Shown here: positions 3,524-29,200 of the stretch, one piece after another
How positions within the stretch are numbered: the stretch's first letter is position 1
Layout: each line of letters opens with the position of its first letter
NCBI RefSeq assembly: GCF_012912105.1
Contig: NZ_QMEA01000310.1
Span: 1-35,928 of the forward strand
DNA length: 35,928 nt
Direction of reading: 5' to 3'
Origin: Brasilonema sp. UFV-L1
GTDB taxonomy: Bacteria; Cyanobacteriota; Cyanobacteriia; Cyanobacteriales; Nostocaceae
Notes under the pieces: generated by a model
What the model saw: the letters and a program-made list of their open reading frames with translations, nothing else
Databases searched by the model: none
What the model was told of the DNA's origin: nothing
Made by a program: the position numbers and the translations under genes

Positions 3524-3907
3524 ATGTTTACCAGAATTGAACTTGAAACCAAGAGTCTTTTGGAGTTAGTCGCGCTGTGCAATCGATATGGGTTGAAAGC
3601 GTATTCTGACCCTAATCTTAGGTCTTCTTGGGCTACTGTTTTGTTGTCTTTTTCTAATATCGCTCTTTCTCAAATGCAGCAGGGAGTTGGGTTAAAACAT
3701 CCTGGGCGTGATGCTATCGAGTCTTTAATTGTTGCTTATGACGCTTTTGGGTTACCCACTCGTGAGCAATCTGCTTTGATTAAAGTTTCTGTGGAAGAGA
3801 GAAGAATAATGCCTCTGCCGTATAGAATAGAGCAGCAAAGAATCCTGGCTCTTTACCAAGCCAAACTTAATCTCGATAAGGCAATATCTCTCCTCTCAAG
3901 CTTCTAA
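3524..3907 (+). CDS. Hypothetical protein (127 aa)
   Basis: Not recognised. ATG start after GGAGTCAGAGT. Residues 8-40 (ETKSLLELVALCNRYGLKAYSD) faintly recall a SAP-type helix-extension-helix nucleic-acid-binding motif, but the match is weak. The rest is helical with no signal peptide or membrane segment. It lies between the XRE control region and parA, and a hairpin (3921-3973) follows its stop. Codon use looks like that of the neighbours. Probably a real plasmid gene of unknown role. Confidence 0.6.
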   Translation: MFTRIELETKSLLELVALCNRYGLKAYSDPNLRSSWATVLLSFSNIALSQMQQGVGLKHPGRDAIESLIVAYDAFGLPTREQSALIKVSVEERRIMPLPYRIEQQRILALYQAKLNLDKAISLLSSF

Positions 3908-4141: not shown

Positions 4142-4897
4142 ATGAGCCGAATCATTGCAGTATTTAATCAAGCGGGTGGTGTCGCCAAGTCAACTCTTAC
4201 CCAAAACTTGGGCTACCATCTAGCACAAAGGGGACATCGCGTTCTCCTCATCGACATGGACCCGCAAGCCTCCTTAACAATCTTTATGGGTTTGGTTCCA
4301 AGAGAATTAAACAAAACCGTCTATGATGCCATAGTCGAAGAACAACCCCTGTCAATTCATCAGGGGATTCATGGCATGGACTTAGCCCCCACCAACACCA
4401 CCCTCAGTGTGGCGGAAATGCAATTGGTCAATGCCGACCTGCGCGACTTCCGCCTTAAAGAAGCTATTGAGCCACTCCGAGACGATTACGACTTCATCTT
4501 GATAGACTGCCCTCCCAGTTTGGGACTGCTAAGTTACATTTCTCTTGTAGCAGCCACGAATGTCCTTGTGCCTATCGAAACCCATTTCAAAGCCTTTGAG
4601 GGAACAAACGAACTCCTGAAAACCGTCACCAGGGTTCGTTCCAAAGTCAACCGCAAATTGGAAATAGCAGGGTTCGTTCCCACCAAATACGATGCCCGTA
4701 ATTCCCAGGACACTCGCACCTTGGGAGCCATTCAAGAACAACTTTCTCAGATGGGTCAAGTCTTTCCCCCCATTCCTCGTTTCACTGCCTTTGTTGATGC
4801 AACAGAAGACCGAATGCCCCTAGCCGTATATGAGCCAAAGCATCCTGCTGTTGCCATACTTGAACAGTTAGCTAGCAGCATGGAGTCCTTGAAATGA
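4142..4897 (+). CDS. parA: ParA-family partition ATPase
   Basis: 251 aa. Walker-type ATPase that moves DNA by cycling on the nucleoid with ParB. The P-loop is FNQAGGVAKST (residues 8-18), Walker A' LLIDMDPQAS (about 35-44) and Walker B FILIDCPPSLG (about 118-128). The usual deviant P-loop of ParA is KGGVGKT/S; here the signature first lysine is alanine and the second variable glycine is alanine, although the catalytic GxxKS/T is kept. No N-terminal DNA-binding extension, so autoregulation would depend on ParB or another factor. The stop overlaps the parB start (ATGA, 4894-4897), so the two are translationally coupled. Confidence 0.93.
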   Translation: MSRIIAVFNQAGGVAKSTLTQNLGYHLAQRGHRVLLIDMDPQASLTIFMGLVPRELNKTVYDAIVEEQPLSIHQGIHGMDLAPTNTTLSVAEMQLVNADLRDFRLKEAIEPLRDDYDFILIDCPPSLGLLSYISLVAATNVLVPIETHFKAFEGTNELLKTVTRVRSKVNRKLEIAGFVPTKYDARNSQDTRTLGAIQEQLSQMGQVFPPIPRFTAFVDATEDRMPLAVYEPKHPAVAILEQLASSMESLK

Positions 4898-6075
4898 TCC
4901 GCAAACGCAACCAACCGCTCAAAAGTAAAATTGAAGTGCCTTGGGACCCCAGAAGCGATTTATCTCCCAACACTACCGCCGACTCCACCCAGAATGTGTC
5001 ATTAGAGCAGATTCATCTGCCACCGACTCAACCCCGGCGTTACTTTGACCCCCAAGCGTTAAAGGAATTAGTCGAGTCAATCAAACAACACGGCATTCTG
5101 CAACCCCTGCTAGTGCGTCCCCTGACTAAAGGCGGATACGAATTAGTGGCTGGAGAACGGCGCTACCGCGCTGCAAAAGAGGTCGGTTTAACTTCAGTCC
5201 CTGTAGTCGTGCGCGAGCTAACTGACTCGGATGCCGTGCAATTGGCTCTGATAGAAAACCTGCTCCGAGAAGACCTCAACCCAGTCGAAGAAACTGAAGG
5301 CATTCTGCAACTACTGGCTATCAGATTAGGTCGAGCGGTTGAGGAAGTTCCTCCCTTACTGCACCGCCTGCAACGCGAACTCAAAGTTGCCAATAACGTT
5401 ATTGGAAAAACTGCAGCCGATAATGAACCAGAATCTGCCAATAACGTTATTGGAAAAACTGCAGCCAATGATGAACCGGAATCTGCCAATAACGTTATTG
5501 GAAAAAGTCAAGCGAAGAAATCAGATACTGCCAATAACGTTATTGGAAAAACTGCAGCAGATGATGAACCAAAATCTGCCAATAACGTTATTGGAAAAAG
5601 TGAGTCGGATGGTTCATCGTCATCCCCCAATCCGAATTTAATTGTCAATCCAGACCTAAAGATTATTGAAGAAGTCTTTACTGGCTTAGGGACAATGACC
5701 TGGGAGTCCTTCGTCAATAATCGTTTGCCCCTACTGAACCTCCCGTCAGACATTTTGGATGTGCTGCGCTCTGGACGAATTGCTTACACGAAAGCCAAAG
5801 TCATTGCTCAGATTTCCGAAAAAACAGAACGCCTTGCCTTTTTAGAGCAAGCACTTGTTCAAGACTGGTCTTTGAGTGAAATCAAAAAGCTTCTTCGTGC
5901 CAAGAAACCCCAACCCCCCACCGAAGTGAGTGACTATCCAAAGCGCTTCACCGCTGTGACGGCAAAACTTAAGAAGTCGCGCATTTGGTCAGACCCCAAC
6001 AAGCGTCAACAATTAGAAACCCTGCTTGCCCAACTGGAGGCGCTAACACTAGAAGAGTCAGCGACTCCAGAATAA
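4894..6075 (+). CDS. parB: ParB-family partition protein with palindrome-encoded repeats
   Basis: 393 aa. ParB/Srx N-terminal CTPase-type domain at about 35-120, with GGYELVAGERRYRAAKEVGL and the IENLLREDLNPVEE stretch. A five-fold repeat follows at about residues 166-240, each unit starting ANNVIGK and 15-16 residues long, rich in D/E/S/K and probably disordered. The C-terminal part (WESFVNNRLPLLNLP, then RSGRIAYTKAKVIAQI and LSEIKKLLRAK) matches the DNA-binding end of cyanobacterial plasmid ParB proteins. The repeats lie where helix-turn-helix sequences start in other ParB proteins. Each ANNVIGK is encoded by the 16-bp palindrome CCAATAACGTTATTGG, so the gene may carry its own ParB-binding sites. 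Coupled to parA by a 4-base overlap. Confidence 0.92.
   Translation: MIRKRNQPLKSKIEVPWDPRSDLSPNTTADSTQNVSLEQIHLPPTQPRRYFDPQALKELVESIKQHGILQPLLVRPLTKGGYELVAGERRYRAAKEVGLTSVPVVVRELTDSDAVQLALIENLLREDLNPVEETEGILQLLAIRLGRAVEEVPPLLHRLQRELKVANNVIGKTAADNEPESANNVIGKTAANDEPESANNVIGKSQAKKSDTANNVIGKTAADDEPKSANNVIGKSESDGSSSSPNPNLIVNPDLKIIEEVFTGLGTMTWESFVNNRLPLLNLPSDILDVLRSGRIAYTKAKVIAQISEKTERLAFLEQALVQDWSLSEIKKLLRAKKPQPPTEVSDYPKRFTAVTAKLKKSRIWSDPNKRQQLETLLAQLEALTLEESATPE
5390..5594. repeat. parS: Five-copy palindrome array inside parB (candidate parS)
   Basis: CCAATAACGTTATTGG, a perfect 16-bp palindrome, occurs at 5390-5405, 5438-5453, 5486-5501, 5531-5546 and 5579-5594. Spacings are 48, 48, 45 and 48 bp, all multiples of three. 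The flanks are also kept (G before, GAAAAA after). A sixth copy with the same flanks sits outside any gene at 14721-14736. Regular palindrome arrays next to parAB are the usual form of a plasmid centromere. That these are ParB sites is inference. Confidence 0.6.
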
Positions 6076-13104: not shown

Positions 13105-14511
13105 ATGAAGTCAGACAATTTAACTGAGATTACGCAGGACTCGGAACTCCATCAAGCGACTAAAAAAGATAGGTCTTCTAAAAGTTCCACAACTGAGATA
13201 GTTGTTGTCGTTGATTTGGGTGCATCTAAGACAAAGGTCATATTTCAGGAGTACCCAGATTCAGAACCGCAAGTCATCTGCATTCAATCCGAGGTGGCAG
13301 ATGTTAGTTTGGATTCATTAAAAAGTTTAGAGGTCGGTGGTCATCCAGAGGACAATTGTTGGGTAAGTTTACCGAATTCGGGGAGTTATGCACTTGGGTA
13401 TTTGGCAAGATATAAGTTTGGCGGCTTAACCATGTTGCGATCGCTCAAATTTGATTTGGCGTTACCGAAGATTGCAGGTGTGCTTTGGGTTGTCAGTCAA
13501 AAATTGAGTAAAAAAACGAAAGTTTTAAAAGTACGGTTGTGTGTTCTCCTACCACCATCTGAAGGTGGAGATAGTAAAGCGCTTGAAGAGAAAATTAAGC
13601 AGGAGTTAGAAGAATTTACAACTCCAACGGGTACATTGCGCGTGAAACTGCTCGATTTTAAAGCGACTCGTGAGGGTTATGGTATTGCGTGTTATCGCCG
13701 AAATATCTTGGGTGACGACAAATTTAAACAACGCAATATTGCAGTTGTGATGGTTGGCTACCGCAATCTTTCGGTTCTTGAGTTTGTACGGGGCAAATTA
13801 CTTGAAGGGGCTTCTTGCGATTTGGGGATGTCTTGGATGGTTGACACATTTGTAAAAGAGTGCGGTGCGGGACTATCAGTTGACGATCCCAAGGTGTTGC
13901 AGGCTTTAGTTGATGCAGGTGCTGACTGTGATAGCACTGTCTTATCTAAGTTATCGCGCAAGCGTAACAACTCGGAGCAAACTGCAGATGGGGCAAAGTT
14001 TTCTCTTGTTGCAAGAAAAGCACGTGACAATTATGCGTTGGCAGTTATCCGGTGGTTGTCGCAAAATATTCCTGAAGAGACTGATGAGATTATCTTCTGT
14101 GGTGGTACAGCGAGATATATCTCTGATAAACTGTGTGAATATTATGACGGCAAAGAAATTCCTGTTGAATGGGATGGTGGGATTGTCGTTCCCAAAGTTT
14201 TAGATAAATTGGAGATGGGAGAACGTCTTGCCGATGTGTTTGGGTTGTATCAATATTATGTCAATAAGTTAGATGAATTAAAAAAAAAAGACGGAGCGGC
14301 TAGGTTACCACAAATGATAGAAGCAGCAGATAGAGCGGAAAAAGAAGCAGTCCAAAAAGCCAAAACAGAAGCAGCCCAGAAAGAAAAAGCTCATAAGATT
14401 GCTCAATTAGTTGCTCAGATAAAAGAAGCGAAAAAAAACAAATGGGAACCGTGGTGGTTGGAGGAACAATTGTATAAATTAACTGATGGTAAGCAGGGCA
14501 GACTCATTTAA
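13105..14511 (+). CDS. parM: ParM/StbA-like actin-fold partition ATPase
   Basis: 468 aa. Actin-like ATPases of the ParM/StbA/Alp type polymerise to push plasmid copies apart. Phosphate-1 motif VVVVDLGASKTKVIF is at about residues 33-47; the connecting strands and a second glycine motif (EIIFCGGTARYISDKL, about 330-345) fit the adenosine-binding subdomain. The N-terminal ~30 residues are an extra polar segment. After about residue 400 a lysine/alanine-rich helix (AADRAEKEAVQKAKTEAAQK) extends beyond the usual ~320-aa ParM length and may be a coiled coil or filament tail. The adaptor-like gene and direct repeats upstream support a type II partition operon. It coexists with a ParAB system on the same molecule. 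Confidence 0.75.
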   Translation: MKSDNLTEITQDSELHQATKKDRSSKSSTTEIVVVVDLGASKTKVIFQEYPDSEPQVICIQSEVADVSLDSLKSLEVGGHPEDNCWVSLPNSGSYALGYLARYKFGGLTMLRSLKFDLALPKIAGVLWVVSQKLSKKTKVLKVRLCVLLPPSEGGDSKALEEKIKQELEEFTTPTGTLRVKLLDFKATREGYGIACYRRNILGDDKFKQRNIAVVMVGYRNLSVLEFVRGKLLEGASCDLGMSWMVDTFVKECGAGLSVDDPKVLQALVDAGADCDSTVLSKLSRKRNNSEQTADGAKFSLVARKARDNYALAVIRWLSQNIPEETDEIIFCGGTARYISDKLCEYYDGKEIPVEWDGGIVVPKVLDKLEMGERLADVFGLYQYYVNKLDELKKKDGAARLPQMIEAADRAEKEAVQKAKTEAAQKEKAHKIAQLVAQIKEAKKNKWEPWWLEEQLYKLTDGKQGRLI

Positions 14512-14720: not shown

Positions 14721-14736
14721 CCAATAACGTTATTGG
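14721..14736. repeat. Sixth copy of the parB palindrome, intergenic
   Basis: CCAATAACGTTATTGG with the same flanks as the parB copies (G before, GAAA after). It shows the sequence is kept outside protein-coding constraint. Confidence 0.7.
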
Positions 14737-16435: not shown

Positions 16436-19400
16436 TCATTTCTCTTTGCTCTCTTTGTAGAGGGAAGATAGCTTCATCCGTCGGCGATCACGCGAAAGTG
16501 GCACTAAAGTAGGGACTTGGTTTTGAGTATTGCTTTCTTTAAAACTTTCAACCACCTTAGATAATTCTGCAATTGTCGGTGATTCAAATACGCTACGCAA
16601 AGGTAACTCCACCTTAAAAGCGTCACGCACTCTAGAAACAAGCTGAGTTGCCAGTAATGAATGACCGCCTAGTTCAAAGAAATTATCATGAATACCTAAG
16701 CGTTTGAGTCCCAAAACCTCAGCAAAAATTTTCACCAGCACTTCTTCAAGGGGAGTCCGAGGCGCGACACAACCTCCTGCCAATTCTGGCTTGATGAGAT
16801 CGGGTGCTCTTAAGGCGCGGCGATCCACTTTGCCATTAGGTGTCAGAGGTAGGGACTCCAGCACTACAAAAGCTGATGGCATCATATACTCAGGTAGCTT
16901 TTGTGCTAGATAAGTCTGCAATTGCGGCACTAACTTACGCGCAGCTTTGGCTTGTAGGGGATTATTGGCATAAGATTGCCATGAACGCAATTGAGGAGCC
17001 AGCTGCTTTCGCGGGTTTGCCGACTGGAGCAGACTAGTGTTGCTAAGTGGACAAATAGTTCTCTTACCTATTGCTTCTTTCTGAACAAAAACTACGTCGT
17101 AGCGTCCTTCATTACTGGAATTTGACCAGCTAATATCAACGTTGTAGCGTAGTTGATTAGCCAGCGCATAAAAATCTTCTGGATCTACTCCTAAATTCTG
17201 GAGTTCTTGCAAGGCTTTACGCATCTGACCCGCTGTTTGAAAATCGTCTACACCCGATAGCCATTCTGCTGTTTTCACTGCTGTCATAACCCGTGCATTA
17301 GGCACATTAGTAATGCCTAACATTTCTGGTTTTTTATCAACCAATATCTGTTGCACTGTTGACACTGTGAGATTATTTTCAGACCAGTTCAGCACTGAAT
17401 AATTTTCAGGATGACTAACAGTTTCACCGCCAACATGAAGAATCGCATTGTAACGAAATTGAGTTAATTCATTGTGGTAGCGACCGCGCATCAGTTGAAT
17501 TTGTACGTGGCTAATCTCAGGAAAGCGCTGCTTTAATGCATTGAAAAAAGCTGGGTCAATGACTAACTCTGTTTCTTGGAAAATTTGCATTTGTACTCGT
17601 TGCTGCAACTGTTCCCGAGTCAGAGAGGGTTCAGCTTGATAGAGTTGCACCGACGCATGGAAAGCTTGCAACAGTGGCAGACTACGCACATCTCCTATAA
17701 AAATAAAACCACCAGGAGCAGTTGCCTGTACAGCACCTTCTAACACCTGCAAAAGATAGTCAATACTGGGAAAATATTGCACAACCGAGTTGAGAATCAC
17801 CGCATCAAAAGCTGCTGCTTCTACTTCTTCAAAGTCAGTAGCCATCTTCTGGTGCAGCGTGACTTGAGATAACTCTTGCTTTGCCAGCTGCTGTTGGATA
17901 TTGTTAAGTGAAGCCGAGGAAAAGTCCGTCCCACAATATTTAGTGCAGTGAGGCGCAATTTTGAACAAAATTAGACCTGTTCCACAACCAATTTCTAGTA
18001 CTCGCTTAGGTTGCAAAGCCAGAATTTGCGCCGCTTGGTTATTCACCCACTCGCGCATCTGCTCTGCCCCAATAGGCTGATTTGTGTAACTGCTATTCCA
18101 GCCTACAATATTGAATGTTGGTTCGCAATCAGCAGCAGGTTGATTATAAGTTTCGTTGTAGAGCATCTGCCATTGCAAAACCTGCTCATCCTGCAATGGC
18201 AGATATTGCATATGCTCCTGCTCACTGCTGTATTCAGCATTTAGCGCCACATAAGCTACTAGACGCTTTTCGCCTACATCCTCACGAGCCATCACTACTG
18301 TTTCTCTCACTGCTGGATGCGCAATCAGCACTGCTTCAATTTCTCCCAACTCGATGCGGTAACCGCGAATTTTCACCTGCTCATCGAGGCGACCTAAAAA
18401 TTCAATATTGCCATCTAAACGATAACGAACTAAATCACCTGTTTTGTAAAGGCGTGCTTTTGGCTGATTCCTAAAAGGATGAGAAATGAATCTTTCAGCA
18501 GTGAAATCAGGACGGTTTAAATAACCTCGTGCCAATCCATCACCAGAAATATACAATTCTGCCGGAACGCCGATGGGTACAGCTTGTAAATGTTTATCCA
18601 GCACATAAACTTGAGTGTTGGCAATGGGACGACCAATTGCAGGTGATACGTCTTCTTGATTTTTAACAGGAACTTGACCGGAAGTTGTTACAACTGTATT
18701 TTCAGTTGGACCATAATTGTTAACTACTAAAAAAGGAAACTCAGCCAGAGGATAATGATTCAGTTTGTCCCCACCTGTCAGTAATATTCGTAAAGCTATA
18801 TTATTCGACCAATCTAATAATAAAAGTTTCTCTGCCAAAGGTGTTGGAACAAAGCTAATTGTTATAGCTTCTGAAACTAGCCAATTTTGCAATTTCTCTG
18901 GCGAGCGCCTAGTTTCATCATCTGGAAAATAAATACTTGCTCCCGCACTCAAAGAAGGCAAAATTTCCCAACTGCAAGCATCAAAGGCAACTCCGGCAAT
19001 CTGCGTGACTCGGTCAAGCGGTGAAACTGCAAACTCTTTTTGATGCCAAAAAACCAGATTTAACAATCCCCTATGTTCAATTTGCACCCCTTTAGGTTTT
19101 CCAGTTGAGCCAGAGGTGTAAATAACATAAGCGAGGTTGTCTGCTGTAACGTTGCTGCTCGGATTATCTTCGCTTTCTTGAGCAAGAGTTTCCCAATCTT
19201 TATCCAAACAGATTATATGTGAATTGTGTATTCCAATACGCTCTATCCACTGCTTGTGAGTTAATAAAACTGGAACTTGAGCATCTTCAAGCATAAAGCT
19301 CAAACGCTCAAAGGGATAGGTTGGATCTAAAGGCACATAAGCTCCTCCCGCTTTCAGGATACCTAACATTCCGATTACCATATCAAGAGAACGCTCTATA

Positions 19401-21244
19401 CAAAGTCCTACTAAAACTTCTGCACCAACACCCAGTTTTTGTAAGTAATGTGCAAGTTGGTTGCTGCGTTTATTTAACTCCCGGTAGGTGAGCTGTTTAT
19501 CTTCAAATACCAGCGCGAGCGCATCAGGAGTCAGTTCTGCAATACTTTCAACTAACTGATGAATGCATCTATCTTGAGGATAGTCTGCTTGGGTATTGTT
19601 CCATTCCACTAACAACTGATGTAACTCAGCTTTGCTTAAAATCGGTATGTCTGCAATTCGTTGTTCTGCATGAGCGACAATATTTTCTAGCAGCGTTTGG
19701 AAATGTCCCAACATCCGGGTAATAGTAGCATCATCAAATAAATCAGTGCTGTAAATGACAAAACCACTAATTCCTTCTGAGCTATCTACCCATAATCCAT
19801 TTTGAGGCGTAAGCGTTGCTCCTCCTTTGGAGGCTCGCTCCCACAGGTGAAACTCCAAATCAAACCGCGTTGTTTCACTATCAAATGGAAGCGGATTTAG
19901 GGTTAACCCTGGTAACTCCAACGCTGACATTGGTGCATTTTGAAGCGCAAACACCACCTGAAACAGAGGATTTTGATTCAAGTTACGTTCTGGATGCAGT
20001 TCCTCCACCAGCTTTTCAAAAGGCAAATCTTGGTGAGCATAAGCTCCCAAAGCTACCTCTTTCACTCGACTCAATAATTCCTGAAAAGTTGGGTTTCGAC
20101 TAAGGTCGGTACGCAGCACTAAACTATTGACAAAAAAGCCAATTAACCCTTCTATTTCACTACGGTTGCGGTTGGCAATCGGTGAACCCACAGCAATATC
20201 TTCTTGCTGCGTGTAGCGATAGAGTAAAATTTGGAATGTTGCTAGCAAGGTTATGAACAAAGTCACCCCTTCCTGTTGCGACAGAGCCTCTAACGCTTCG
20301 CTCAAGCTTTTTGGTAATTGCAAAAATTGCCTTGCACCTCGGTAGGTTGGAACTGTTGATCTTGGTCGGTCAGTAGGCAGATTCAACACGGAAATGCCGT
20401 CCAACTGTTGCCGCCAATAACCTAGTTGCCTTTCCAACACTTCCCCTTGCAGCCATTGACGCTGCCAGTATGCAAAGTCTGCATATTGAATGGGGAGTTC
20501 CGGCAGGTCAGAAGGCTGATTTGTGGTAAAGGCTGTGTAAAGCGCTGCTATTTCCCGAATAAGTACCCCGACAGACCAACCATCAGAGACAATGTGGTGC
20601 ATATTCAGCAGTAAAATATGTTCTGCCTCATCCAACCGTAGCAGTGTTATTCGCAGCAACGGGTCACTTGATAAATTGAAAGGACGTTGAGCTTCCTGGG
20701 TAGTGAGTTGTCGTGCTTGTATTTCGCGTTGCTCCCTCCGAGTCGCTGCGCTAACGACTTGTGGCAATTCCTGTAAATCAATTACCGATAAAGATACTTT
20801 TAAAGTGGGTGCAATGACCTGAATTGGTTGCCCTTGCACCATGACAAAAGTGGTACGTAAAGCTTCGTGACGCCGCACAATTTCATTAAAAGTTTGTTCC
20901 AGCGCCGTTAAGTTCAGCGAACCTGTTAGATGCAGAGCTGCCGGAACGTTATAAAAAGGATTGTTGGGTACTAGTTGGTCAAGAAACCATAGCCGCTGTT
21001 GAGCAAAGGAGAGAGGGAGGACAGTTGTGTTCCGTGAAATATGTACCAGGGGTGTAGAAGTGTAGCTGGTAGTATAATGAGCTGCTTTTAAAAATTCAAT
21101 AATTTCTGCTTTGCGCTCTTGAATTTCTGCACGTAGTTCTGGTGTGAGAATTCCTTCCGGGGCGTTACAGCGCAACCGTTCGTCTTCAACAAAAACTTGA
21201 ATATCTAAGCTGCGAAGATAAGATAAAAACTGAACTGTTTTCAA
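16436..21244 (-). CDS. NRPS module C-A-MT-PCP with TubC-like docking domain (predicted N-Me-Leu)
   Basis: 1602 aa from a TTG start chosen because AAGGAG lies 8 bp upstream and gives MKTVQFLSYLRSLDIQVFVE, a canonical TubC-type docking N-terminus. Order: docking 1-55; condensation ~75-500 with MHHIVSDGWS; adenylation ~560 on with IYTSGSTGKPKG; an N-methyltransferase inserted late in the A domain (~1040-1440, VLEIGCGTG SAM motif); PCP ~1530 with DNFFELGGHSLLATQ. My reading of the specificity positions, by alignment to GrsA, is D-A-W-F-L-G-N-V-V-K, a known leucine code. The C-terminal LVPLSRDRRRMKLSSL is a common NRPS tail that hands the chain to another protein. In-frame palindromic repeats add residues near ERASKGGATLTP. 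Divergent from the hydrolase gene. Confidence 0.93.
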   Translation of the reverse strand: MKTVQFLSYLRSLDIQVFVEDERLRCNAPEGILTPELRAEIQERKAEIIEFLKAAHYTTSYTSTPLVHISRNTTVLPLSFAQQRLWFLDQLVPNNPFYNVPAALHLTGSLNLTALEQTFNEIVRRHEALRTTFVMVQGQPIQVIAPTLKVSLSVIDLQELPQVVSAATRREQREIQARQLTTQEAQRPFNLSSDPLLRITLLRLDEAEHILLLNMHHIVSDGWSVGVLIREIAALYTAFTTNQPSDLPELPIQYADFAYWQRQWLQGEVLERQLGYWRQQLDGISVLNLPTDRPRSTVPTYRGARQFLQLPKSLSEALEALSQQEGVTLFITLLATFQILLYRYTQQEDIAVGSPIANRNRSEIEGLIGFFVNSLVLRTDLSRNPTFQELLSRVKEVALGAYAHQDLPFEKLVEELHPERNLNQNPLFQVVFALQNAPMSALELPGLTLNPLPFDSETTRFDLEFHLWERASKGGATLTPQNGLWVDSSEGISGFVIYSTDLFDDATITRMLGHFQTLLENIVAHAEQRIADIPILSKAELHQLLVEWNNTQADYPQDRCIHQLVESIAELTPDALALVFEDKQLTYRELNKRSNQLAHYLQKLGVGAEVLVGLCIERSLDMVIGMLGILKAGGAYVPLDPTYPFERLSFMLEDAQVPVLLTHKQWIERIGIHNSHIICLDKDWETLAQESEDNPSSNVTADNLAYVIYTSGSTGKPKGVQIEHRGLLNLVFWHQKEFAVSPLDRVTQIAGVAFDACSWEILPSLSAGASIYFPDDETRRSPEKLQNWLVSEAITISFVPTPLAEKLLLLDWSNNIALRILLTGGDKLNHYPLAEFPFLVVNNYGPTENTVVTTSGQVPVKNQEDVSPAIGRPIANTQVYVLDKHLQAVPIGVPAELYISGDGLARGYLNRPDFTAERFISHPFRNQPKARLYKTGDLVRYRLDGNIEFLGRLDEQVKIRGYRIELGEIEAVLIAHPAVRETVVMAREDVGEKRLVAYVALNAEYSSEQEHMQYLPLQDEQVLQWQMLYNETYNQPAADCEPTFNIVGWNSSYTNQPIGAEQMREWVNNQAAQILALQPKRVLEIGCGTGLILFKIAPHCTKYCGTDFSSASLNNIQQQLAKQELSQVTLHQKMATDFEEVEAAAFDAVILNSVVQYFPSIDYLLQVLEGAVQATAPGGFIFIGDVRSLPLLQAFHASVQLYQAEPSLTREQLQQRVQMQIFQETELVIDPAFFNALKQRFPEISHVQIQLMRGRYHNELTQFRYNAILHVGGETVSHPENYSVLNWSENNLTVSTVQQILVDKKPEMLGITNVPNARVMTAVKTAEWLSGVDDFQTAGQMRKALQELQNLGVDPEDFYALANQLRYNVDISWSNSSNEGRYDVVFVQKEAIGKRTICPLSNTSLLQSANPRKQLAPQLRSWQSYANNPLQAKAARKLVPQLQTYLAQKLPEYMMPSAFVVLESLPLTPNGKVDRRALRAPDLIKPELAGGCVAPRTPLEEVLVKIFAEVLGLKRLGIHDNFFELGGHSLLATQLVSRVRDAFKVELPLRSVFESPTIAELSKVVESFKESNTQNQVPTLVPLSRDRRRMKLSSLYKESKEK
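19806..19840. repeat. Palindromic repeat inserted in-frame in the 1602-aa NRPS gene
   Basis: Contains the hairpin CCTCC-TTT-GGAGG (19821-19833). It encodes RASKGGATLTP in a loop near the end of the condensation domain; the matching place in the 1419-aa NRPS has no such residues. Confidence 0.55.
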
Positions 21245-21416
21245 AATTACACTCCTTCGCAACAGTTGTTAATGACTACTTATTCATTGACCCAGTATTT
21301 TTAGCACACTTAGAACACCATACAAATCATTCTCTGGATTGAAAGTTGGATGATTGTAACTATGGTATGAAGCTGAAAGACAACGCAGACAATAAAGTAT
21401 CGCAAGGTTTAAGCTC
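21245..21416. promoter_or_regulatory. Divergent promoter region between NRPS and hydrolase genes
   Basis: 172 bp between start codons of divergent genes, so it must hold a leftward promoter for the 1602-aa NRPS and a rightward one for the hydrolase. No clear operator seen. Confidence 0.5.
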
Positions 21417-22544
21417 ATGCTGTTCATGCCTCATAATTTCCTACTTGTATGGCTGGTTCAACTGCTATCTGTCGGGGTACTTGGCGGCGGAATCTACATT
21501 CTCTATGAGTGGTACGAACAGGAACTTGTGGGCATGTCCTACTTAGTGATTGGACTGGCGATGGTTTTGTGGTCTTTTATTGGTCGTTTTATCAGTTTGC
21601 CGCTTCTGCGCCGTCCTGGCTCTGAAGAACCCAAGTTCACGCGTAGCAAAACTGTGGAGCGTTTGCGACGACCGGATGGTAGCATACTGCAAGTAGAGTT
21701 TTATGGTCCTGAGGATGGTCAACCGATTATCATGTCACACGGTTGGGGACCAAACAGTACTGTGTGGTATTATGCCAAGCGACAACTGAGTGATTCCTTT
21801 CGAGTCATTGTTTGGGATTTACCAGGGCTGGGAAAATCTTCCAGCTCGAAAAATAAGGATTATTCCCTAGAAAAATATGCTCGTGATTTGGAAGCCATTA
21901 TTGCCATAACAGGAGATAAGCCTGTTATCCTGTTGGGACACAGCATGGGGGGCATGATTATATTGACGTTTTGTCGGCTGTTTCCACAGCATTTGGGAAG
22001 TCGGGTGGCTAGCTTAATTCTTGTGGATACTACCTACACCAATCCGGTAAAAACTTGTATTTTTAGCGGTTTGATACGTAAATTACAGAAGCCCTTACTT
22101 GAACCTCTGTTGTACATCACTATCGTGCTGTCACCTATCTTGTGGTTGATGACTTGGCTCTCATATCTAAATGGTTCGTTGTACATTAGCGTAGAACTGT
22201 CTGGATTTACGGGTACTGAAACACGCGGTCAACTCAATTTCGCAGCTATATTATCAGCGTTGGGTTCGCCTGGTGTTCTTGCTCGCGGTACACTGGCAAT
22301 GTTCAACTACGAGGAAACTAAAACACTTGCAACTATTAACGTTCCCGTGTTAGTCGTTTGTGGCGCTTCAGATATAGCGACTAAACCTGTAGCAAGTGAT
22401 CGCATGAAAGCAGAATTGCCTCAAGCTGAACTTGTCACCATCAACCCCGGTGGACATATGGCATTAATGGAGCAAAACCAGCGATTTGCCCAAGCTGTCA
22501 GCGCGTTTTGTTCTGCTTGTGGTAACTCAGGCGTTTCTCCTTAA
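21417..22544 (+). CDS. Alpha/beta-hydrolase with N-terminal membrane segments
   Basis: 375 aa. Residues about 7-30 and 41-60 (FLLVWLVQLLSVGVLGGGIY; YLVIGLAMVLWSFIGRFI) are hydrophobic and likely anchor the protein in the membrane. The hydrolase domain follows: LSHGWGPN-type oxyanion region (MSHGWGPNSTVW), nucleophile GHSMGG (about 175), acid in VLVVCGASD, and histidine in GGHMALMEQ. It lies inside the NRPS cluster on the opposite strand, convergent with the 1110-aa NRPS gene; stop codons overlap by three bases at 22541-22544. It may hydrolyse or release an acyl/peptide, or be an editing or detoxifying esterase; substrate unknown. Confidence 0.82.
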   Translation: MLFMPHNFLLVWLVQLLSVGVLGGGIYILYEWYEQELVGMSYLVIGLAMVLWSFIGRFISLPLLRRPGSEEPKFTRSKTVERLRRPDGSILQVEFYGPEDGQPIIMSHGWGPNSTVWYYAKRQLSDSFRVIVWDLPGLGKSSSSKNKDYSLEKYARDLEAIIAITGDKPVILLGHSMGGMIILTFCRLFPQHLGSRVASLILVDTTYTNPVKTCIFSGLIRKLQKPLLEPLLYITIVLSPILWLMTWLSYLNGSLYISVELSGFTGTETRGQLNFAAILSALGSPGVLARGTLAMFNYEETKTLATINVPVLVVCGASDIATKPVASDRMKAELPQAELVTINPGGHMALMEQNQRFAQAVSAFCSACGNSGVSP

Positions 22545-25500
22545 AATTCCACCTCTTCTCGCTCTTGTCCTGTATTTCCAGTCTTATCTAAACCTTTTAC
22601 CGCCCAACACATTGTGTCAATGTACCTAGCAAGCTGTGCCACAGTCGGTGCTTCAAACAAGTTACGTACAGTCACATCTATTTGGAGGGTATCACGGATT
22701 CGGGAAGTCAGCTGAGTTGCTAGTAGAGAATGACCGCCCAATTCAAAGAAATTATCGTGAATACCTACTTGCTCTTTTCCCAACACCTTAGCCCAAATTT
22801 CTACAAGCAACTCTTCAAGGCGCGTCTGTGGTGCTACATAATCTTGTTTATCAAAAATGAGTGAATCGGGAACTCTTAAAGCACAGCGATCCACTTTGCC
22901 ATTAGGTGTTAGCGCAAAAGATTCTAGTATTACATAAGCTCTTGGTACCATGTATTCTGGTAACTTCTGTTTCAAAAATTGGCGAAGTTCATTTATCAGT
23001 GCTGAGTGAGAAGTTCCACTCAGGACTCGACACTCAGGACTCGGAACAATATAAGCAACCAAAAGCTGATCACCAGGTATCTCTTCTGTAACAATGACTA
23101 CTGTTTCTTCCACTGCTGAGTGTTGACTCAGAACCGCTTCAATCTCTCCCAACTCGATGCGGAAGCCGCGAATCTTGACTTGATTGTCAATGCGACCTAA
23201 AAATTCAATATTGCCATCTGGTAAATAGCGGGCTAAGTCACCCGTTTTATAAAGACGTGCTTTTGGGAGAAACCCAGTTTCTGGAACTGTAATGAAGCGT
23301 TCAGCAGTTAACTCAGGGCGGTTGAGATATTCTCGTGCTAGTCCATCACCGCCAATATACAACTCGCCAACAACGCCAATGGGTACAGGCTGTAAATGGG
23401 TATCTAGCAGATAAATCTGTGTGTTCGTAATGGGGCGACCAATGGGAATAGATGTGGCTGATTCTGATAATTCTTGCACACAGTAATAAGAAGAAAATGT
23501 TGTACTTTCTGTAGGACCATAAACATGAATTAATCGTTTTGGTGAACCATTTTTGAGAACCTTTTTAACCCACCTGGTATCAACAGTCTCACCGCCAAAG
23601 AGCAAGTATCGTAACGGAGCAAAAGCTTGCGGAACATCTCTAGCAATTTGTTGAAATAATGCCGTAGTCAAAAACAGAATGCTAATGCCTTTTTGTTGTA
23701 TTTGTAATGTCAATTCGTGAGGCGAAAGAGTTACATCTTTGCTAATTCCAACAAGTTGAGCGCCGTTAAGTAGCGCTCCCCAAATCTCGAATGTCGCTGC
23801 ATCGAAGGAAGTATTCGAGGCTTGGGCAATTTTATCAGTAGGTTCTAATTTTACATAGTTTGTGTTGCACACAAGCCGATTTACAGCTTTGTGAGCCACA
23901 GCCACTCCCTTAGGCTTTCCTGTAGAGCCAGAAGTGTAAATGACATAGGCTAAATTGTTAGACTTTACACTGCTTTTGGGGTTTTCTTCGCTTTCTTTGG
24001 TAATTGATTCCCAGTCCTTATCTAGAGAAATTATCGGGTTTGAGAAGTCCTCAAAATGCTTGAGCAACTTTTCCTGTGTCAGCAATACAGTAACTTGTGC
24101 ATCTTCTAGCATGAATTTCAGGCGCTCTTGAGGATAGCTAGGGTCTAAAGGTACATAAGCACCTCCTGCTTTTAAAATCCCCAGCAACCCCACAATCATT
24201 TCTACAGATTGTGGAATGCAAATGCCTACTAAAACATCTGAACCTACCCCCAATTTTTGCAAGTGATGTGCTAGTTGGTTGCTGCGAATATTTAACTCCA
24301 GATAGGTAAGTTGCTCGTTTTCAAATATTATTGCTACGGAATCAGGATGCTGCTTTACTTGATTTTCAAATAACTGATGGATACACTTATCTTGAGGATA
24401 ATCTGCTTGGGTGTCATTCCATTCAATTAGCAACTGATGAGCTTCTGCTTCGCTCAATAGCTGTAAATTTCCGATGCGTTGTTCTGGATTAGCAACAATG
24501 CCTGACAATAGTGTTTTAAAATGTCCCAGCATCCGGGTCATGGTGGCTTTCTCAAACAAATCTGTGTTGTAAACCATTACGCCTCTAATACCCTCGGAAT
24601 GCTCCCAGTTTGCCCCCCATAAACTCCTGAAATCCTCAGAAGACTTCCACAGGTGTAACTCCAAATCAAAGCGCGTTGTTTTAAAGTCAATATTCACAAA
24701 ACTAGGCACTAACCCAGGTAGTTCTAGCGCCGACATTGGCGCATTCTCGAAACCAAACACCACTTGAAATAACGGATGATGGCTTAAGTTTCGCTCTGGA
24801 TGCAATTCCTCAACTAGCTTTTCAAAAGGCAAATCTTGGTGGCTATATGCTCCTAGTGTTACCTCCCGTATTCTGCCTAGTAGTTCCCTAAAGGTGGGGT
24901 TGCCAGATAAGTTAGTGCGTAGCACCAAACTATTGACAAAAAAACCAATGAGTCCTTCAATTTCGCTGTGGTTACGGTTAGCAATTGGCGAACCGACTGC
25001 AATATCTTCCTGATGTGTGTAGTGGTAAAGTAATGTTCCAAATGCTGCCAGCAGCGTCATAAATAAGGTAACACCTTCTTGCTGCGACAGCGCCTGAAGT
25101 GCATTACTTAAGTTTTTCGGTAACTCTAGAAATTGTGTTGCTCCTTGATAGTTTTGTATAGCTGGTCGCGGTTTGTCGGTAGGCAGATGTAGCATCGAAA
25201 TACCGTTTAATTGCTGCCGCCAGTAAGCTAACTGAGTTTGGAGTACTTCTCCTTGCAACCACTCGCGCTGCCATTCGGCGAAGTCAGCGTACTGAAGAGG
25301 TAGTTCCAACAGAGGTGTAAGTCCTGCGGACAGGCACTCTCGGCGCGTAGCGTCTTTGGAGGAGATAGCCTGCTTTTGTACAAAAGCTGTGTACAGCGTT
25401 CCCAGTTCCCGAATCAGGACCCCAATAGACCAATCGTCGCAGATAATGTGGTGCATATTCAGCAATAAAATATGTTCTGTCTCCCAAAGCACAAGCAGCA

Positions 25501-25873
25501 TCACTCGCAGCAACGGTCCAGAGGACAAGTCGAAAGGATGTTCAATCTCTGCGGTGACAACGCGCTTTGCTTGTGTTTCCCGTTCGTTTGCTGGTAACTG
25601 CCGCAGGTCTAATACAGAAAGGGGTATGGTTAAGGAGGGTGCAATTACCTGCACGGGTTGCCCCTCCAACACCGTAAAAGTAGTGCGTAATGCTTCGTGG
25701 CGACGTACAATTTCGTTAAAGGTCTGTTCTAGTGCCGCTAAGTTAAGCGAACCTGTCAAGCGAATGACTGTCGGCACATTATAAATGGCATTGCCAGGTA
25801 TCAACTGGTCGAGGAACCACAGCCGCTGTTGGGCAAAAGATGCAGGAAAGACGAAGACCTCTTCAGAAGACAT
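22541..25873 (-). CDS. NRPS module C-A-PCP (predicted Ile/Val)
   Basis: 1110 aa, ATG start after AAGGAG. Condensation domain ~8-440 (motif HHIICDDWS, with D in place of the usual G of HHxxxDG), adenylation ~480-950 (IYTSGSTGKPKG), PCP ~990-1060 (DNFFELGGHSLLATQ). Specificity positions read D-A-F-F-L-G-V-T-F-K, close to Ile/Val codes in cyanobacterial NRPSs. The C-terminus GQEREEVEF is an acidic short tail of the kind that docks to TubC-type N-terminal domains, so it should feed the 1602-aa protein. There is no N-terminal docking domain and no loading module, so an acyl starter or an outside module is needed. Residues about 168-188 are a palindrome-encoded insertion. Confidence 0.93.
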   Translation of the reverse strand: MSSEEVFVFPASFAQQRLWFLDQLIPGNAIYNVPTVIRLTGSLNLAALEQTFNEIVRRHEALRTTFTVLEGQPVQVIAPSLTIPLSVLDLRQLPANERETQAKRVVTAEIEHPFDLSSGPLLRVMLLVLWETEHILLLNMHHIICDDWSIGVLIRELGTLYTAFVQKQAISSKDATRRECLSAGLTPLLELPLQYADFAEWQREWLQGEVLQTQLAYWRQQLNGISMLHLPTDKPRPAIQNYQGATQFLELPKNLSNALQALSQQEGVTLFMTLLAAFGTLLYHYTHQEDIAVGSPIANRNHSEIEGLIGFFVNSLVLRTNLSGNPTFRELLGRIREVTLGAYSHQDLPFEKLVEELHPERNLSHHPLFQVVFGFENAPMSALELPGLVPSFVNIDFKTTRFDLELHLWKSSEDFRSLWGANWEHSEGIRGVMVYNTDLFEKATMTRMLGHFKTLLSGIVANPEQRIGNLQLLSEAEAHQLLIEWNDTQADYPQDKCIHQLFENQVKQHPDSVAIIFENEQLTYLELNIRSNQLAHHLQKLGVGSDVLVGICIPQSVEMIVGLLGILKAGGAYVPLDPSYPQERLKFMLEDAQVTVLLTQEKLLKHFEDFSNPIISLDKDWESITKESEENPKSSVKSNNLAYVIYTSGSTGKPKGVAVAHKAVNRLVCNTNYVKLEPTDKIAQASNTSFDAATFEIWGALLNGAQLVGISKDVTLSPHELTLQIQQKGISILFLTTALFQQIARDVPQAFAPLRYLLFGGETVDTRWVKKVLKNGSPKRLIHVYGPTESTTFSSYYCVQELSESATSIPIGRPITNTQIYLLDTHLQPVPIGVVGELYIGGDGLAREYLNRPELTAERFITVPETGFLPKARLYKTGDLARYLPDGNIEFLGRIDNQVKIRGFRIELGEIEAVLSQHSAVEETVVIVTEEIPGDQLLVAYIVPSPECRVLSGTSHSALINELRQFLKQKLPEYMVPRAYVILESFALTPNGKVDRCALRVPDSLIFDKQDYVAPQTRLEELLVEIWAKVLGKEQVGIHDNFFELGGHSLLATQLTSRIRDTLQIDVTVRNLFEAPTVAQLARYIDTMCWAVKGLDKTGNTGQEREEVEF
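25309..25370. repeat. Palindromic repeat inserted in-frame in the 1110-aa NRPS gene
   Basis: Contains GTAAGTCCTGCGGACAGGC (25317-25335) and CGCGTAGCGTCT just after, encoding DATRRECLSAGLTP between TAF and ELPLQYADFA of the condensation domain. 22 bases (25314-25335) are identical to 29836-29857 in the 1419-aa NRPS gene, at the same protein position. The 1602-aa NRPS lacks it. Confidence 0.7.
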
Positions 25874-25919
25874 ATTGCTCCTTCTACTTTCTTATAACTT
25901 TTTTATAATGGTGTGTCTC

Positions 25920-26209
25920 ATACCAATTCTCTGTAAACTTGCACTTAATACTTACTCTTTCACTCGGGCGCGTGCTTGGCGACGCCAGTCGCCTACGGAG
26001 GGAAAGCCGTCATTCGCGCTGGCGAGTCTTGGCGGTACCCTGCGGGAAGCCCTCCGGGGAAGACCGGAGGTCTCGCTGCGAAGGGCGGGGGTTCGCAATC
26101 GACGGGAACCGCCAAGACTGCGACCCCCTCACCGCTGCGCGTCTACGTTTAATAAATATTAAGTGCATCTATGGCACTTTACGGGCAAGCTATCATGGAG
26201 AATTGGTAT
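25920..26209. mobile_element. MITE-like element between NRPS genes
   Basis: 290 bp with terminal inverted repeats ATACCAATTCTC (25920-25931) and GAGAATTGGTAT (26198-26209), and inner arms TGCACTTAATA (25940-25950) and TATTAAGTGCA (26157-26167). The centre is GC-rich, with its own inverted repeats (AGTCTTGGCGGT and ACCGCCAAGACT). No open frame encodes a transposase. The right terminal repeat supplies the last codons and stop of the 1419-aa NRPS gene. Confidence 0.7.
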
Positions 26210-29200
26210 CAATACACGCTTTTAGTTGTTCGGCAAGAACCTTTATATGGGGTTTTCTCAGCATAGTTAGATGATTACCAGGTATCATATGAATTTCTGT
26301 TCCTCCAATAGCTAATTTATCCCAACCCATACTTGGATCTCGCTCAGCAGTGCTTGATTGAGCGTTTGTTCTAAAAAGAGTGATTTGCTTAGGGTATGCT
26401 TGCGGAACATAGTTGAGCGCTGCTTGGCTGTTGGCATAGAAAACACGAAGCATTGGGCGAATTGTTAACTCGCTTAAAATCTGTGATTTGGACTCCTTAG
26501 ATATAAGGTTTGCTGTGGCAGCCTCTCCCAGGATAAAGTGTGAGAACAGATTAATTTCGAGCCATTGAACAAACTTATTAAAAATAGGAATACCAGAAGT
26601 TACACTGTTAATTCGGTTCTTGCTAGGAGCGGTCATTAGATAAAAATAATCGAGGAAAAATGGCCATATAGATCGCACTACTGTAGTGAGAAGAAACTTA
26701 AAACCATTGCCAAAAGAAGGTATATTACCGGGAACTGGTGCTAAAGTGTCAAGCACAGCAAGTAAAGCCACTTCATCCCCAGACTTTTGGAGTTGAGTCG
26801 CCATCTCAAAAGCAACCAAACCTCCAAAAGACCAACCTCCTAAAAAATAAGGACCTTTCGGCTGCACTTTACGCAATGCTTCAATGTAATGAGCAGCCAT
26901 GTCCTCAATGCGAGTGAGTGGAGAACTTTTTCTGTCCATGCCAATGGGTTGTAGCCCATAAAATGGTTGATTCGTCCCCAAATGATGAGCTAATTCGTAA
27001 TAAGGAAAGACAACACCAAAGATTGGATGGACACAGAAAAAAGGTGGATTTGAACCAGTAGGCTGAATCGCAACTAAGGGAGACCAAGGCAGAGAATCTG
27101 TTTCTTGGCATAAAGAAGTTGCTAAATTTTCAATTGTTGGATTTAAAAACAGGGTAGATAGTGACAAATCACGCTCAAATTGCTTGTTTATCCGCTCTAG
27201 GAGGCGTACAGCCAGCAGCGAATTTCCTCCTAAGTCAAAGAAGTTGTCGTAAATACCCACACGCTCAATGTTAAGGACTTCAGCCCAGATTTTTGCTAAT
27301 GTTGACTCGGTTGGAGTACGAGGAGCAATAAAGGCTTTATCTGTTGAGATATTAGTGGGAGTATTCAACGTTTCTAGCGCCAAGCGATCCACTTTGCCAT
27401 GAGCCGTTAGTGGCAGAGAATCTAGCAGGACAAAAGCTCTTGGCAGCATGTATTCTGGTAATTTTTCTTTTAAGAATTCACGTAGTTCAATGGTTGTTAA
27501 TGCCTGCTTTAAGTTAGGAACAATATAAGCCACCAAGTACTTATCACCAGATACATTCTCTTTAGCAATGACTACTACTTTTTGCACGCTTTGATGCTGA
27601 CTCAGTACTTTTTCAATCTCTGCCAACTCGATGCGAAATCCACGAATTTTTACCTGATTGTCGATGCGACCTAAAAATTCAATATTACCATCTGCTCGAT
27701 AACGAGCTAAATCACCTGTCTTGTAAAGTCGCGTTCCCTCTTTATCACTAAAAGGATTGGGAATAAATTGTTCAGCAGTTAATTCGGAACGGTTGAGGTA
27801 AGCTCGCGCCAGTCCATCACCACTGATATATAATTCGCCAGGAATTCCGATTGGTACAGGTTGTAAATGCTTATCTAATATATAGATTTGAGTGTTAGCA
27901 ATAGGACGACCAATGTGTGGTTTTTCACTCATAGCACTCATTTCTGCAACGGTTGACCAAACAGTTGCTTCCGTCGGTCCATAAGCGTTAAAAAACCGAC
28001 GACCAGAGTTCCACCAACGTTTTATAATATCCTCAGAACAGAGTTCACCTGCACAAATGATAGTTTGCAATGCAGGAAGTGATTCTTTTGGTAGGACTGC
28101 CAACACGGCTGGTGGAAGGGTGACGTGAGTAATAGCTTTTTCGCGCAGTAGTTGGATTAAAGCTTGTCCGGGTAAAAGAAATTCTTTCTTTGCTAAATAA
28201 AGAGTTGCTCCTGTTTGCAGTGCCATGACAATCTCAAAAATTGAGGCATCGAAACTTAATGATGCGAATTGCAGAATGCGGTGAGGAGGTTGCAAGTTGA
28301 AAACCGAAATCTGAGCTTGTGCTAAGTTGGACAGTCCTCGGTGCGGGAGCAAAACGCCTTTAGGCTTTCCTGTTGAGCCAGAGGTGTAGATAACGTAAGC
28401 TAGGTTGTCAGGTGTTACACTACTGGTTAGATTTTCCTGGCTTTGGGAAGTGTAGTGCAAAGCAGATCCGTGGGCATTTGCTTCTTTATCGTTATCCAAG
28501 GAAACTACAGATAAGCAAACTACAGATAAGCAAACTACAGATACCGAAGTCTTCCCCAAACGTTCAAAGAATTGTTCAAAGAATTGTTGCTGAGTTAACA
28601 AGACTGTTACTTGAGCATCTTCTAGCATGAAGTTAAGACGCTCCTGAGGATAGGTGGGATCTAAAGGCAGGTATGCTCCACCCGCCTTGAGGATGCCTAA
28701 TATTGCGACTATCATCTCCAAAGAACGCTCTACGCAGATGCCAACTAAAACATCCGGGGCTACCCCCAGTTGTTGCAGGTGATGTGCAAGTTGGTTAGCT
28801 CGGATATTTAGTTCTCGGTAGGTTAACTGCTTGTGTACTCTACGAGTAGAAGCGCTCTGAACGTCAACAAAAACTACTGCTATGGCATCAGGAGTTTGCT
28901 CCACCTGCGCTTCAAATAACTGATGAAAACACTTGTTTTGTGGCTCATCTGTGCTGGTATTATTCCAATCAATCAATAATTGCTGCCTTTGGAGCGCAGT
29001 CAGTAAAGGCAAGTCTGTTAGGTGCTGTTGTGGATCAGTGACAATACTTTCTAGCAGTGTTTGGAAATGTCCTATCATCCGGGTAATGGTGGCATCATCA
29101 AATAAATCCGTGCTATACACCACTTGTCCTTTAAGACTTTCCAAGTCCTGCCACAGGTGAAACTCCAAATCAAGCTTTGCGGTTTGGCTGTCGAACTCGA

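Follow-up and report, generated by a model that had tools for sequence, protein, structure and literature searches.

In-frame palindromes that covary with ParB are probable centromeres inside cyanobacterial parB genes

Where does the centromere of a partition system lie when one palindrome is repeated within the reading frame of the parB gene itself? The window, which is the whole stretch of DNA analysed here, is 35,928 bases long and constitutes the entire contig C236 of an assembly of 8.31 Mb in 337 contigs. Alongside parAB it carries genes for a Mob_Pre relaxase, for transposases and integrases and for three peptide synthetases. By this gene content the contig is probably a plasmid or a plasmid fragment. 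The peptide-synthetase genes (16436-30452; condensation, adenylation and carrier domains, one with a methyltransferase and one with a thioesterase) share the contig with the relaxase and are possibly a mobile natural-product cluster. Two transposase genes (1777-2997 and 30583-31767) are of the IS605 OrfB/TnpB type with Cas12f1-like TNB domains. A 127-aa open reading frame directly upstream of parA (3524-3907) gave no match in Pfam. The partition genes have the make-up of a Type I ParABS system, with a Walker-type ParA ATPase adjoining parB and a ParB containing ParB_N and HTH domains. They are listed below with the palindrome copies:

4142..4897, + strand: parA, a 251-aa ParA-type ATPase (Pfam AAA_31, 4.5e-51), whose stop overlaps the parB start
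4894..6075, + strand: parB, 393 aa (Pfam ParB_N 1.4e-33, HTH_ParB 4e-10; TIGR00180 2.8e-37), with a predicted disordered insert between its putative DNA-reading helices
5390..5405, unstranded: putative parS copy 1, exact match
5438..5453, unstranded: putative parS copy 2, exact match
5486..5501, unstranded: putative parS copy 3, exact match
5531..5546, unstranded: putative parS copy 4, exact match
5579..5594, unstranded: putative parS copy 5, exact match
14721..14736, unstranded: sixth copy of CCAATAACGTTATTGG, a putative extra parS, intergenic, with flanks TG...GAAA and outside open reading frames of at least 80 aa

Exact matching places five copies of CCAATAACGTTATTGG within parB (starts 5390, 5438, 5486, 5531 and 5579; spacings 48, 48, 45 and 48), each read as ANNVIGK, as the initial annotation had described. 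Its claim of identical flanks also holds by eye, the block common to all five copies including GCCAATAACGTTATTGGAAAAA. Its count of five is right for parB but missed the exact intergenic copy at 14721-14736. That copy lies ~210 bp downstream of an open reading frame (13105-14511) whose resemblance to actin-like proteins is weak and below threshold (ALP_N, E 0.0072); an annotated ParM/StbA gene stands beside parA on the Nodularia plasmid L097. At up to three mismatches the window contains six matches, against 0.13 expected and a maximum of two in 100 shuffles. The whole 8.3-Mb assembly holds exactly six copies, all on the window contig, and at up to two mismatches there are six further matches, against five for a reversed-pattern control. 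By eye, three of the four spacers between the parB copies are versions of one 32-base sequence, and the five-copy block reads as a tandem amplification. The identity among the five copies, which had been taken to fit selection on the DNA, is therefore weak evidence when considered alone; the support for such selection comes from the comparison with relatives.

The canonical chromosomal parS is TGTTTCACGTGAAACA. No match to it was found in the window at up to three mismatches. At up to two mismatches, the cyanobacterial loci, which overlap in part and total 1.36 Mb, contain no site of this kind; 56 were found in 431 kb of non-cyanobacterial ParB loci.

A scan of genome contigs yielded 143 relatives, of which 80 were kept. 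Of these, 51 (L007-L057) are cyanobacterial, counting L044, which is labelled Gracilibacteria and is suspected to be a mis-binned cyanobacterial contig. The same place in parB was readable by the first pattern in 47 of the 51 and encodes mostly NNVIG or HNVMG, the DNA being CCAATAACGTTATTGG, CCCATAACGTTATGGG or, less often, ACAATAACGTTATTGT, with decayed copies too. The sample was widened by twelve named plasmids and by 110 regions from genomes of the class, taken from among the matches listed (30 + 80), and 169 distinct parB open reading frames were identified with phmmer, the window gene and its copy L099 being counted once. A perfect 16-bp palindrome around an in-frame AAC-GTT core is present in 134 of the 169, in 31 types. 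Perfect 16-bp palindromes of any sort occur in 137 of the 169 genes, against a mean of 11.8 and a maximum of 18 after synonymous codon shuffling (100 runs). The site column was also defined by protein alignment alone, with no prior site selection, in 168 of the genes (one too-short frame was left out). At this column 8/8 pairs are complementary in 129 genes, 7/8 in 27, 6/8 in seven, 5/8 in three, 3/8 in one and 1/8 in one, whereas codon positions other than the site column reach 8/8 in 0.16%. The comparison of orthologues that the initial annotation had proposed thus returned palindromes at the same place, complete or with a single mispair, in 129 and 27 of 168 genes, respectively. Five of the 168 ParBs, those with at most 5/8 pairs, are without a convincing site: among the frames examined, L121, L136 and the second L129 frame have none, and L167 and L199 reach only 5/8. 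Among 36 non-cyanobacterial ParB frames (29 loci from the same scan), a perfect 16-bp palindrome was found in one, near the start of the open frame.

The symmetry extends beyond 16 bp. Among 145 distinct 40-mers, complementarity is 87% at pair 9 (36% expected) and 81% at pair 10 (53% expected); pair 11 equals expectation, pair 12 shows 45% against 29%, and from pair 13 onward values lie close to expectation. In the window's own site the bases at pair 9 are not complementary. The sites used for this symmetry count and for covariation were those with at least 6/8 pairs at N-V or N-I, in 164 of the 169 frames. The reading frame is the same for all 252 in-gene copies that have at least 7/8 pairs and AACGTT at their centre. 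At sites with at least 6/8 pairs the Val codon is GTT in 269 of 270 cases, against 1287 of 3201 elsewhere. N-V is nearly invariant at the aligned site (160/168), and the residues outside it differ radically between ParBs (HNVMG, RNVSP, QNVLI, ENVFR, GNVSR) with the DNA still palindromic. Palindromicity is thus kept by changes on both arms, a pattern that points to selection at the DNA level.

The number of copies is variable. A single site was found in 100 of the 169 sampled genes, so the five-copy array would be a local, secondary amplification of an ancestral single site. The original view of a centromere inside parB is retained; the relatives add that the array is secondary and that the site is common to the sampled family rather than peculiar to this plasmid. 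The commonest spacings between in-gene copies are 45 bp (36 times), 81 bp (22) and 135 bp (nine), with 90 bp six times. A step of 45 bp corresponds to 15 codons and to slightly more than four turns of the helix, and both helical phasing and duplication length are candidate causes. A further parB piece in the window's genome (L210; G000:C330:26931-27350) contains the post-insert part only and lies near the end of its 27,367-base contig. The assembly seems to be broken there in the repeat zone; counts of arrayed sites from draft genomes may be too low.

An AlphaFold model of the window ParB (25 sequences, mean pLDDT 73, pTM 0.57) locates the site array in a segment with pLDDT below 50 (residues 170-249), in agreement with the earlier expectation of a disordered segment next to the DNA-binding part. 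Helices are predicted before this segment (149-170, which holds residues 160-161) and after it (253-265 and 270-282). A GERRYRA-type box is present, which we take to be linked to CTP binding and to a sliding clamp. The best Foldseek matches are ParB and Noc structures, with modest TM-scores of 0.2-0.4 on the query. HMMER aligned ESFVNNRLPLLNLP with RSTVANALRLLALP of the Myxococcus ParB structure, placing N276 on the Asn of VAN. By eye, this Asn is presumably the same as N178 of Caulobacter ParB. The contact residues given for Caulobacter ParB in the relevant part of PMC7383237 include N178. The model and the covariation described below suggest that the linker encoded by the site is flanked by a reading element on either side:

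5371..5376, + strand: codons of Q160-R161, inferred readers of arm pairs 7-9 (covariation of columns 152 and 153)
5389..5640, + strand: segment coding for the predicted disordered linker (about residues 166-249), which carries the site array (AlphaFold pLDDT below 50 at 170-249)
5701..5739, + strand: putative recognition helix WESFVNNRLPLLN, residues 270-282 (AlphaFold helix; HMMER alignment to the recognition helix of a solved ParB)
5719-5721, + strand: codon of N276, the residue that covaries with pair 4

The covariation of the site with ParB was analysed in 107 ParBs less than 90% alike, taken from 163 frames long enough to align. Protein columns were ranked by mutual information for each arm position, and columns encoded by the site itself were excluded from the best-match ranking. 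The best column for pair 4 is 189 (N276 in the window, on the recognition helix), the best for pairs 7 and 8 is 152 (Q160), and the best for pair 9 is 153 (R161). For pairs 6 and 10, neither mutual information nor tree counts gave a single clear reading column. Residue 276 agrees with the usual pair 4 in 104 of 106 ParBs (the set of 107, one with a gap): N goes with T-A (68/68), H with C-G (10/10), T with A-T (4/4), K with A-T (3/3), and S with A-T in 19 and G-C in two. As serine accompanies both A-T and G-C, the code is not one-to-one.

The same relation was followed on a tree of 163 ParBs built without the site and HTH columns, using parsimony counts with ties resolved arbitrarily. Pair 4 underwent 20 inferred changes, all 20 matched on the opposite arm, and 18 of them fall on branches where column 189 changes, against 1.4 expected (p 9e-24; next column 6e-7). 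For pair 9, 22 of 30 changes were matched on the opposite arm and 23 coincide with a change at column 153 (2.6 expected); for pair 8, 20 of 21 were matched and 14 coincide with a change at column 152 (2.1 expected). Pair 6 had 20 of its 23 changes matched on the opposite arm, and pair 7 is less tidy, with 15 of 26. When ParBs sharing 50-90% identity are compared two by two, 1614 comparisons show a different pair 4, and 1586 of these also differ at column 189; pair 4 is the same in 2416, of which 108 differ at column 189. Among the nearest pairs of ParBs, only three above 68% identity have different bases at pair 4, with more than 20 further differences in the region in each case. Two of the three (G versus A at pair 4) have an unchanged residue 276, and the third (T versus A) goes from N to S. 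The former two fit the occurrence of serine with both A-T and G-C but show that other residues must also matter; the argument is based on the pair counts and the tree. Part of the covariation near the site could come from the exchange of a whole module of site plus HTH; single columns nevertheless stand out by many orders of magnitude.

The sites are nearly confined to the cognate replicon, with exceptions. In 10 of 12 complete plasmids the own exact site is found only in parB. NC_011730 has one further copy outside parB, and L098 (NZ_CP023282.1), whose site CCCGTAACGTTATGGG has 7/8 pairs, has a second copy in a short open reading frame that is a duplicated parB fragment (record positions 39870-40163 and 40938-41900). 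A different palindrome of the same kind is also present elsewhere on the plasmids AP018321 and NZ_CP119970. ATCARAACGTTYTGAT lies within parB in every one of seven genomes with such a parB; G274 (C242) and G327 (C30) each have one more copy on the contig of the parB copy, G152 has one more on another contig (C4), and the single match in the window's own genome falls short of a perfect palindrome. A lone copy of the pattern CYSATAACGTTATRGG, located in parB, is present in each of five genomes, three of which have chromosome-sized contigs (G176, G189, G157), and among the five only the G176 site has 8/8 pairs. The second full parB of the window's genome (C92) carries GACATAACGTTATGTC, unique in the assembly. 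Relatives of the Calothrix group also have scattered palindrome copies outside parB on the contig. Among the places outside parB, 24 were examined in nine sources, one of them the window, and two are in an open frame of at least 100 codons; in L007, L046, L047 and L051, sites tallied as outside parB in an early pattern count are partly inside it. The pattern CCMATAACGTTATKGG is present in 37 of 145 genomes of the family, on one to three contigs each among the matches listed, and its reversed control in one. Four Okeania loci (L052 3830, L053 1882, L055 9091 and L056 6736) have CCCCTAATGTTATGGG, a near copy of the in-parB site, ~800 bp before parB.

Genomes with more than one parB were considered as well. 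In 20 of the 22 with at least two sampled parBs the sites are all different, the exceptions being G102 (six sampled) and G207 (two sampled). Four parBs on four plasmids of G102 share one site, and eight of the nine copies of the commonest site of this genome are in parBs, with one elsewhere on a plasmid contig (G102:C6). This sharing counts against an in-parB centromere, as a simple incompatibility model would not favour it. A rule that co-resident plasmids must differ in site was not supported: sites are shared in 7 of 64 co-resident pairs, which is not rarer than between genomes (112 of 4787).

The system resembles Type I ParABS with an HTH-type ParB CTPase (Caulobacter, Bacillus, Myxococcus) in its ParA ATPase and its ParB with ParB_N and HTH, in a putative palindromic target of ~16 bp centred on ACGT, and in a putative reading residue whose counterpart in a solved ParB is the Asn of the recognition helix, the top folds being ParB and Noc. 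It differs in that the putative target is within the parB coding sequence, with an AACGTT core, 31 perfect types and symmetry over ~20 bp, in that bases seem to be read by an additional helix ahead of the site as well, and in that the canonical parS was not found. The site parS-359 of Bacillus subtilis is one of several sites of one near-universal sequence. It is a real parS inside parB (spo0J), as a passage of PMC4442127 describes, so the in-gene location as such is not new. The cyanobacterial palindrome shares this location, and covariation suggests that it is the target of ParB; unlike parS-359, it is often the only copy found, varies with ParB and is common to most sampled members. In ParB and Noc, according to the sections of PMC7383237 on specificity, a few residues of the HTH region reset the palindrome that is read; N178 and its neighbours contact DNA, N178 is conserved, and positions 173, 179, 184 and 201 decide specificity. 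By contrast, the residue at the cyanobacterial position aligned with N178 (N, H, S, T or K) changes along with pair 4. A parS inside cyanobacterial parB is not reported in the relevant parts of open-access full texts, including PMC4442127, PMC12207404, PMC7383237, PMC12704722, PMC13245405 and PMC4492784, and no report of an in-frame, co-evolving centromere as a common cyanobacterial parB feature was found in open-access full texts.

Several other explanations could account for a palindrome in this position. ParB might bind it as an autoregulatory operator or as a transcription roadblock tuning parAB, with the true centromere elsewhere. The palindrome sits within the operon, nearly all sampled relatives have it in parB, binding there would naturally feed back on expression, and all the covariation results are compatible with this role; the copies away from parAB (9 kb away in the window, scattered over the contig in the Calothrix-group relatives) and the failure to find a canonical parS, in a search for the canonical sequence only, speak against it. 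We consider the operator role unlikely, and it is the only rival to which we give more than a marginal chance. That the palindrome serves a different factor of the plasmid (replication initiator, nuclease or methylase), or forms an RNA hairpin in the parB transcript, is much less probable: palindromes suit many dimeric proteins and the arms could pair in RNA, but the arm bases vary together with particular recognition-helix columns of ParB itself, and the copies outside parB are absent from its message.

Two further explanations are, in our judgement, the least probable of all. Rickettsia palindromic elements are in-frame palindromes inside genes, dispersed over many genes. A spreading palindrome of this kind, or of the REP/HIP1 kind, repeatedly inserted in parB would yield an identical short in-frame palindrome in several copies, as observed. 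However, the cyanobacterial sites seldom occur away from parB and its replicon; six copies on one contig, rather than many unlinked ones, were found in the window's genome, which disposes of the alternative that the initial annotation had raised. The family-wide pattern (37/145 genomes, one to three contigs each among the matches listed) is similarly restricted, and from plasmid to plasmid the arm sequences vary together with residues of ParB. The other explanation takes ANNVIGK as a protein repeat selected for its function, the DNA palindrome being a by-product of codon choice. The constant frame and the near-invariant N-V (160/168) favour it, but the outer residues are radically different while the DNA remains palindromic through changes on both arms, few palindromes survive codon shuffling, the Val codon is GTT far beyond its use elsewhere (269/270 against 1287/3201), and copies exist outside parB.

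We prefer to read the palindrome as the parS site, or centromere, of the window's ParABS system, located inside the parB coding sequence, with ParB binding, clamp loading and segregation following by inference. We hold this to be very probable. The initial annotation's proposal of a self-encoded centromere is strengthened by the 31 site types with changes on both arms, the covariation, the near-confinement to the replicon and the absence of canonical parS from the loci searched. Palindromicity, covariation of protein and DNA, near-confinement and predicted disorder were all obtained by computation. In the proposed mechanism, ParB dimers would bind each 16-20 bp palindrome with one monomer per half-site, pair 4 being read by residue 276 of the recognition helix and pairs 7-9 by residues near 160-161 of the preceding helix. 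CTP-bound ParB would load as a clamp and slide over parAB and neighbouring DNA, and ParA would move the ParB-DNA complex. The palindrome, translated in frame as x-N-V-x, would form a disordered linker between the two DNA-reading elements; this role allows very different arms to be tolerated in the protein, the AAC-GTT core being nearly fixed. With the reading residues (the key) and the site (the lock) close together in one gene, both could diversify and move together. On the window plasmid, an ancestral single site would have given rise to five in-gene copies and one intergenic copy, plausibly for more ParB loading.

The generalization of this reading is also probable, if held a little less firmly. 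Most cyanobacterial ParBs of the family, on plasmids and on chromosome-sized contigs, would carry their cognate centromere as the linker between two DNA-reading elements, making the gene a self-contained cassette. The 31 site types would represent co-evolved pairs giving a readable code (residue 276 for pair 4, residues 160-161 for pairs 7-9), and arrays would arise by in-gene amplification, mostly in 45-bp steps.

If this is correct, cyanobacteria widely keep the centromeres of their plasmids, and some chromosomal ones, inside the gene of the protein that binds them. This would offer an answer to how partition specificity changes without failure of the system, because both halves are in one gene and are inherited together. 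It would also show clearly how a function of the DNA can dictate the sequence of a protein linker. The sites are candidate parS sites for cyanobacterial plasmids, for which none were found reported in the open-access literature. The 31 types and their ParBs constitute a natural library for the rules of specificity and for plasmid incompatibility, and orthogonal pairs of site and ParB could serve ParB-parS DNA-labelling methods.
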